The notes beneath the pieces are model-generated. The model saw only the letters and a list, made by a program, of their open reading frames with translations. It did not search any database and was not told where the DNA came from. 38,531 nucleotides of DNA from a virus. The stretch spans positions 1 to 38,531 of IMG/VR virus record IMGVR_UViG_3300011187_000022; one strand, written 5' to 3'. This document shows, piece after piece, positions 12,493 to 18,130 of the stretch. The translations under genes and the position numbers were made by a program. Numbering within the stretch: position 1 is the first letter of the stretch; the number at the start of each line of letters is the position of its first letter.

Positions 12493-13017
12493 TTATTTGC
12501 CAGTCATCTGATAACATGTCTGTGTTTGAGAAGCAAGCCAACCGGTAAGAACTTTCTTATCTGCTGTCCACATGCGAATAGACCCATATGTATCAAACGT
12601 ACTTTTCCCTGTTTCACTTTCAATAACTTCACGAAGATTAGGATCGTTAATTACTTTTGTGGGAATATTATCGTTTGCAGGAAGCAGGAACAAAAACATG
12701 TTTTTTCCATTCCATCCTTTACGTGCAACGCGCTTACCCTTCTTTAAAGCCTCAAGAGCCAATCCGAATGAAAGACCAGTTGTTTTACGATAAGCATCAT
12801 CGAATTCTTTCTTAGGACTCCATGAAATATATCCTTCATGGTTTGGATGTACTTTGTTATCACTGTTTAGATATTCTACCAAGTATCCTTTATCAGATGG
12901 ATCTTCATCTTCCGGTATTACCCAACCTCTATAATTGTTGTATTCTCCGCGAGTCATTGGAGTTGCTTTAATAAGCTTTGTTCCAATGTATTCTTTCATG
13001 TCATTATTCTTTATCAT
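12493..13017 (-). CDS. tad2: Tad2-like (DUF2829) anti-Thoeris protein with extra N-terminal domain
   Basis: A 174-residue protein of two parts. Residues 81-172 match the DUF2829/Tad2 family: LSFGLALEALKKGKRVARKG (82-101), WNGKNMFLFL, then SIRMWTADKKV and GWLASQTQ. Tad2 proteins are established phage sponges that bind signalling nucleotides such as 1''-3' gcADPR and so block Thoeris immunity. Residues 9-79 form a separate phage domain (PMTRGEYNNYRGWVIPEDED ... GYISWSPKKEF). The usual family ending SQTD-x-L-x-x-DW is replaced here by SQTQTCYQMTGK, so the ligand pocket may differ. It sits in the late operon directly before terL. The start could be M1 or M7. Confidence 0.8.
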   Translation of the reverse strand: MIKNNDMKEYIGTKLIKATPMTRGEYNNYRGWVIPEDEDPSDKGYLVEYLNSDNKVHPNHEGYISWSPKKEFDDAYRKTTGLSFGLALEALKKGKRVARKGWNGKNMFLFLLPANDNIPTKVINDPNLREVIESETGKSTFDTYGSIRMWTADKKVLTGWLASQTQTCYQMTGK

Positions 13018-17586: not shown

Positions 17587-17945
17587 GGGGATGTGTGTAA
17601 TTGGCATCGACATTACGTAGTCGTTATAATTATCAACATGACATCTTGGAAAGACAAGAATGTCAATGCAAATGACACTAAAAAAGAAGCATCTATATTT
17701 AATCTGTTCGGAGCAACAAAAGTTGTTGCTGCCTAAAATAGGATTAAATATCAGGGTTTAGCCTAACCTTGTTACCCAATAGGCGATACCACAAGAGTTA
17801 TTGGCTATACCAATTATCTAACCAAATAACATTAACATGTTGTTTGATAGTAACATGAGGAGGCATCCTTTATATGCAAAATTGTTGTAACCGAGTAATT
17901 ATAATAGAACGATGATGGACCGGGGTTCGACTCCCCGCATCTCCA
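17587..17945 (+). ncRNA. ssrA: tmRNA (one-piece, phage-encoded)
   Basis: Transfer-messenger RNA of about 359 bases. The tRNA-like part has a 7-bp acceptor stem (GGGGATG at 17587-17593 with CATCTCC at 17938-17944, one G-U), a T arm CGGGG-TTCGACT-CCCCG, and a D-like TTGGCATCGACA. A long P2 helix joins TCGTT/ATAATTA of the 5' part with TAATTAT/AACGA of the 3' part. The CCA end is not encoded. A hairpin (GACAT-CTTG ... CAAG-A-ATGTC, about 17640-17664) stands just before the probable resume codon GCA at 17668. The tag frame has 22 codons (begins ANDTKKEA, ends ATKVVAA) and stops at TAA 17734-17736. It would rescue stalled ribosomes and mark proteins for proteolysis. A terminator follows at 18094. 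Confidence 0.93.
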
Positions 17946-18001
17946 CAATTAGTAACAAGTAGCTTAAAATTAAATGCTATCGTAACAGTTAAAAAAGAAT
18001 G

Positions 18002-18024: not shown

Positions 18025-18093
18025 AATATATAGTGAAAAAGCATGTATATGTGGGTAAGTATTTAAATTAAAATCACTTTACCTCAAAGAACG

Positions 18094-18130
18094 AAGCCTA
18101 TTGCCTTGACTGGTAGTAGGCTTTTTTATT
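18094..18130 (+). terminator. Intrinsic terminator after the tmRNA
   Basis: AAGCCTA (18094-18100) pairs with TAGGCTT (18117-18123), with additional TGCC/GGTA pairing inside, followed by TTTTTTATT. This is a good intrinsic terminator and ends the tmRNA transcription unit. The T-run leads into TTTTAATCAAAA just before the next gene. Confidence 0.75.

Follow-up and report, generated by a model that had tools for sequence, protein, structure and literature searches.

A one-piece tmRNA gene with a long tag frame in a crAss-like phage, and the recurrence of tmRNA genes among its relatives

The window, as we call the whole 38,531-base stretch analysed here, is a linear virus record, probably a fragment, and carries a genuine one-piece tmRNA gene on its plus strand at 17587-17945/6, far beyond what chance would yield. 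A tmRNA releases ribosomes that have stalled and marks their incomplete products with a peptide tag. An earlier note on this DNA had proposed a phage tmRNA at 17587-17945 and suggested running ARAGORN and the RF00023 model on it. ARAGORN reports a single tmRNA at 17587-17946 (+), and no tRNA genes in the window. The RF00023 covariance model matches the same place over all 374 of its positions (1-374), with 46.8 bits and an E-value of 2.4e-17. This match was obtained with an E-value threshold; at the Rfam gathering threshold (47 bits) no match is reported, the tmRNA falling 0.2 bits short. The proposed gene is thus borne out by ARAGORN and by the RF00023 E-value, but not at the gathering threshold. 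The RNA folds with a minimum free energy (MFE) of -102.3 kcal/mol, against -75.2 (s.d. 5.4) for shuffled sequences (z -5.0), and none of 100 shuffles did as well.

Covariation in relatives, which the earlier note had put forward as a check, supports the tRNA-like part. Across 13 phage tmRNAs, including that of the window, the acceptor and T stems are paired in 100% of cells. Compensatory changes occur at 8 of the 12 pairs in these stems, with 31 compensatory cells observed compared with 7.9 in shuffled data and 0-4 in slid structures. The G3.U70 pair is present in 13/13 sequences; in part, the search programs presuppose this pair and the A at -4 relative to the resume codon, whereas they do not presuppose the covariation. 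A P2 duplex is predicted in the window and in all 12 relatives, from differing sequences. A D-like loop is also present, and the elements that had been read by eye (acceptor stem, T arm, D-like loop, P2, pre-resume hairpin and a stop-terminated tag frame) are all confirmed by sequence and folding (Table 1).

Table 1. Features of the tmRNA gene and its 3' flank, in window coordinates
Feature	Position	Strand	Basis
One-piece tmRNA gene, through discriminator A	17587..17945	+	ARAGORN, RF00023, folding z -5.0
Acceptor stem, 5' strand GGGGATG; G3 pairs with U70 (alanine identity pair)	17587..17593	+	sequence, covariation
P2 helix, 5' strand	17611..17638	+	duplex prediction, MFE
Pre-resume hairpin TGACATCTTGGAAAGACAAGAATGTCA at the canonical PK1 place	17639..17665	+	sequence, MFE
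Tag frame GAC...GCC TAA, 20 codons, DTKKEASIFNLFGATKVVAA	17674..17736	+	ARAGORN, -4 A rule
Perfect hairpin GCAACAA-AAG-TTGTTGC within the end of the tag frame	17713..17729	+	sequence, MFE
Probable PK2, GGGT/ACCC interleaved with GCCTA/TAGGC, after the stop codon	17754..17784	+	by eye from sequence
Hairpin GTTATTGG-CTATA-CCAATTAT, PK3 region	17797..17817	+	MFE
P2 helix, 3' strand	17883..17917	+	duplex prediction, MFE
T arm CGGGG-TTCGACT-CCCCG	17921..17937	+	sequence, covariation
Acceptor stem, 3' strand CATCTCC, and discriminator A	17938..17945	+	sequence, covariation
Intrinsic-terminator-like hairpin with T tail, 3' of the tmRNA	18093..18124	+	terminator scan (2 found, 0.8 expected)

CCA is not encoded, the bases after the discriminator A being CAA, so the host must add it. 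The place of PK1 is taken by a plain hairpin, and no H-type pseudoknot was seen there in the sequence or by MFE folding, which is not pseudoknot-aware; tmRNA pseudoknots are replaceable in E. coli (PMC2481249). A sigma-70 promoter scan gave no excess over chance.

The tag most likely comprises 20 codons from GAC at 17674, not the 22 from GCA at 17668 that had been read previously. Nearly every tmRNA has an A at position -4 relative to its resume codon, this base is essential, and changing A86 of E. coli tmRNA to C abolishes or shifts tagging (PMC2481249). GAC is preferred because it has A at -4, whereas GCA has C and so breaks the rule; GAC also lies 8 nt past the pre-resume hairpin, and GCA just 2 nt. 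The choice of GAC by ARAGORN is not independent support, since the program has the -4 A built in (138/138, 82/82); the published rule is independent. A separate structural scan (A at -4, first base G, T or C at -5) returned a single tag, the 20-residue DTKKEASIFNLFGATKVVAA. The base at -5 before GAC is C instead of the usual U, a departure that 19 of 82 phage tmRNAs share and that is evidently tolerated. A tag starting at GCA, with 22 codons and the translation ANDTKKEASIFNLFGATKVVAA, gains from the resemblance of GCA AAU GAC to the common start GCA AAC GAC, and the RF00023 alignment places UGCAAAU at the GCA start with high posterior; with C at -4 and so short a spacing, we regard this start as unlikely. 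The frame closes at TAA (17734-17736), and its VVAA end was read correctly in the earlier note.

Judged by its protein sequences, the window is a crAss-like phage (Crassvirales and relatives). Matches to crAss-like PHROGs were obtained for its terminase large subunit (TerL), portal and major head protein, with E-values of 1.4e-113, 6e-92 and 9e-86, respectively. TerL shares 32-34% identity with Suoliviridae and 32% with Flavobacterium phage FpV4, and the major head protein is 53-54% identical to two IMG/VR relatives. These matches, together with ARAGORN and RF00023, uphold the claim that a crAss-like phage encodes the tmRNA. The relatives point to a Bacteroidota host and an aquatic habitat. 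The window also encodes, at 12493-13017 (-), a protein in which Pfam recognises a Tad2-like domain of Thoeris anti-defence (E 7.5e-15).

Stop-codon recoding is known in crAss-like phages. Several in-frame stop codons interrupt the TerL frames of two records (L018 and L012), and that of L018 fits such recoding, translating fully if TAG is read as Q. Another record has a DNA polymerase frame (G075 C1:4921-6813, L508) with two in-frame TGA codons, possibly reflecting TGA recoding or frame errors. A further crAss-like contig (G009 C1, L236) packs a cluster of 20 tRNA genes into some 2.6 kb.

The earlier note knew of no tmRNA in crAss-like phages, a statement contradicted by one-piece genes in FpV4, Cellulophaga phage phi14:2 and IMG/VR relatives, and by two-piece genes in many Suoliviridae. 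Of 50 records that have a related TerL or polymerase, G026, G027, G004 and FpV4 match RF00023 over its full length and above the cut-off; 50 more with related DNA polymerase added G060, G047, G075, G048 and one further record. Phage phi14:2 matches RF00023 with 46.0 bits (E 6.8e-17), and three more crAss-like records (L409, L425 and L412) carry one-piece tmRNAs. Altogether, about a dozen relatives have full-length one-piece genes. The annotations of FpV4 and phi14:2 contain no tmRNA feature, and we found no literature describing tmRNA in crAss-like phages, most subscription journals lying outside the coverage of our search. An exact tag pattern search of IMG/VR returned no near relatives with the window tmRNA; the nearly identical contigs L009 and L010 stop short of the tmRNA locus, and the window DNA polymerase as a single query retrieved just one distant relative. 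The 3' end identifies no donor, since a 29-base 3' end that is nearly the same recurs across many phyla.

The genomic place of the gene also recurs. In the window, the tmRNA lies between leftward structural and rightward replication genes, on the strand of the latter and 1.9 kb upstream of the DNA polymerase. It is likewise upstream of the polymerase on the same strand in G026 (1.6 kb), FpV4 (4.7 kb), phi14:2 (5.1 kb), G047 (0.6 kb), G048 (1.6 kb), G075 (1.9 kb), L409 (4.7 kb) and L425 (8.6 kb), and in G027 (4.4 kb) if the record ends join; in G060, the exception, it is 6.5 kb downstream. Loci found via the polymerase are biased toward polymerase proximity, whereas G026, G027, FpV4 and phi14:2, found via TerL or chosen by name, are free of that bias. 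The shared place in distant relatives argues against a captured host tmRNA gene that is now decaying and functionless in the phage. So do the uniformly intact stems, because decay ought to break pairs, and the open tag frame, correct resume context and strong fold. Decay would fit the RF00023 score below the gathering cut-off, a window tag unrelated to other phage tags, and the patchy presence of tmRNA on the polymerase tree (7 changes compared with a shuffled mean of 9.2), where the labels partly understate presence, the 'no' for L327 and L328 being wrong according to the structural scan. On balance, we consider decay very unlikely. The patchiness itself may stem either from vertical descent or from repeated capture.

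The tag had been called unusually long, which holds against the 32 sampled Bacteroidota tmRNAs, all with tags of 9-10 residues, but not within phages: of 82 one-piece phage tmRNAs, 25 have tags of at least 20 residues. Tags reach at least 16 residues in 12 of 13 crAss-like or related tmRNAs: against 20 in the window, there are 35 residues in FpV4, L409 and L425, 38 in phi14:2, 42 in G075 and 33 in G048. In related phages, tags are often two to four times longer than in the likely host bacteria. As far as sequences tell, the long tag is a habit of the clade and of phages. Nor does the VVAA end by itself mark an altered degron, as had been suggested, with relatives ending in VAA, VAVAA, LAA and MAA. 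ARAGORN missed the FpV4 tmRNA and cut short the tags of G075, phi14:2, L409 and L425, apparently owing to tags longer than about 33 codons; the ARAGORN outputs concerned are those on L223, L346/L385, L658, L409 and L425.

Some long-tag families appear to be conserved at the protein level, and the window tag falls in none of them. The tags of FpV4, L409, L412, phi14:2 and G075 are alike beyond chance when compared with shuffled tags. Between FpV3/4 and L409, the differences by codon position are 7/6/16, and 12 codons differ nonsynonymously where 18.5 are expected (P 0.001); codon changes in the phi14:2/G075 tag core and in the FEDAM tag core likewise favour synonymous sites. The window tag is not similar beyond chance to this long-tag family (P 0.22-0.90 against shuffled tags) or to other phage tags, except weakly to that of G047 (P 0.05). 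A second long-tag family of one-piece tmRNAs, with a TFEDAMxF-like core, was seen in L279, L380, L408, L443, L542, L551 and L568. The three of these tested for a crAss-like TerL or polymerase match (L380, L408 and L443) had none, and tmRNAs with this tag may therefore move between phages. A third family consists of two-piece phage tmRNAs with tags of 28-31 residues (ANADTFDFSAMSFTGN...), in L526, L547, L549, L560, L582, L587, L594 and L629.

These patterns bear on whether the phage tmRNA serves chiefly to place a different tag, the long tag altering the fate of the protein (by way of the protease chosen, the speed, or a function of the peptide itself) beyond release of the ribosome. The recurrence of long tags in phages, set against the short tags of sampled Bacteroidota, and the protein-level conservation just described speak for such a function. 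However, the window tag resembles none of the conserved families beyond chance, almost all tags carry the usual degron at their end, Ala-Ala preceded by a hydrophobic residue, and constraint at the RNA level could mimic part of the conservation signal; we hold this explanation to be possible but doubtful. We entertain with equal reserve the broader proposal that Bacteroidota crAss-like phages might own a trans-translation tag system, in which a lineage-conserved, selected tag of 16-42 residues would redirect or reprogramme proteins from stalled ribosomes and of which the window tmRNA would be a divergent member.

Comparison with known tmRNAs places the gene further. With the standard one-piece form (RF00023/ssrA) it shares acceptor and T stems, G3.U70, D-like loop, P2, the -4 A resume context, an Ala-Ala tag end and a stop codon, and it differs in its 20-residue tag (9-10 in Bacteroidota), the hairpin at the PK1 place and its low score; it also encodes no CCA, as is common elsewhere. 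The one-piece genes of Flavobacterium phages FpV3 and FpV4 and Cellulophaga phage phi14:2 lie, as it does, on the strand of the DNA polymerase and to the same side of that gene, and likewise have a long tag, G3.U70 and no CCA, but their tags (35 residues in FpV3/FpV4, 38 in phi14:2) belong to a conserved family around ANM from which the window tag is excluded.

Two-piece tmRNAs occur in the same phage group. The RF04321 model detects permuted two-piece forms in 12 Suoliviridae-type records, 7 of them above the cut-off (L644-L655: NC_055895, NC_055899, NC_055901, NC_055897, NC_055875, NC_055888, NC_055891, NC_055903, NC_055898, NC_055902, PV686213 and G002). The carriers are gut crAss-like phages from several Suoliviridae subfamilies; crAss001 has no two-piece tmRNA by RF04321, and RefSeq already labels one such gene (cr124_1) SsrA. 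ARAGORN assigns tags to 11 of the 12, nearly all around a DYT motif (for example, GNVNNIVDYTNVA and GNFYVTDYTRIAA). These tmRNAs have the same expected function as the window gene, but they are circularly permuted, carry tags of 12-15 residues and occupy a different genomic place; unlike them, sampled Bacteroidota carry one-piece tmRNA. Phage tmRNAs had been described as known but rare; known they are, and rare only in relative terms, with 402 of 18,146 phage genomes carrying them in one survey (PMC9004378). The mycobacteriophage Bxz1 group, Bacillus phage G and Melnitz also have virus-borne ssrA, but are unrelated phages, and the Melnitz tmRNA is a two-piece form with a riboswitch (PMC4131195, PMC9004378).

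We think it probable that the one-piece tmRNA gene works and belongs to an aquatic crAss-like phage, acting in rescue and tagging through host machinery; counted against this are the RF00023 score 0.2 bits under the cut-off, the hairpin at the PK1 place and the C at -5. Neither the window nor eight relatives (nine records in all) yielded an SmpB gene, so host SmpB must serve. By the established tmRNA pathway, the RNA would be transcribed during infection, receive CCA from the host and be charged with alanine by host AlaRS. Bound by host SmpB and EF-Tu, the charged tmRNA would enter ribosomes that have come to a halt on mRNAs that are broken or lack a stop codon, adding alanine plus the 20-residue tag to the stalled protein. 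The ribosome would be released at the stop codon of the tag, and the hydrophobic-Ala-Ala end would send the tagged fragment to host proteases. Any benefit to the phage would most likely lie in such ribosome rescue with host SmpB and proteases. The uses raised in the earlier note, namely rescue during host shut-off, competition with the host tmRNA and diversion of tagged host proteins from ClpXP, would be conceivable roles. The tmRNA might instead serve as a decoy, titrating host SmpB or EF-Tu and thereby blocking host trans-translation, for which there is a precedent in the tag-less tmRNA-like RNA of mycobacteriophage DS6A, an inhibitor of E. coli tmRNA (PMC4131195, PMC11915505). Yet a decoy could dispense with the tag frame, resume context and mRNA-like domain, all retained in the window gene, the frame in full, which makes that role very improbable.

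Regarded together, tmRNA genes of one-piece and two-piece form are a recurrent, mostly unannotated trait of crAss-like phages, and the window tmRNA joins the known phage tmRNAs instead of standing as an oddity. Standard tools conceal long phage tags, as the missed FpV4 gene and the shortened tags of its relatives demonstrate. With FpV4 (Flavobacterium) and phi14:2 (Cellulophaga baltica) as cultured carriers, why such phages have a rescue RNA of their own, and why its tag is long, become directly testable questions.
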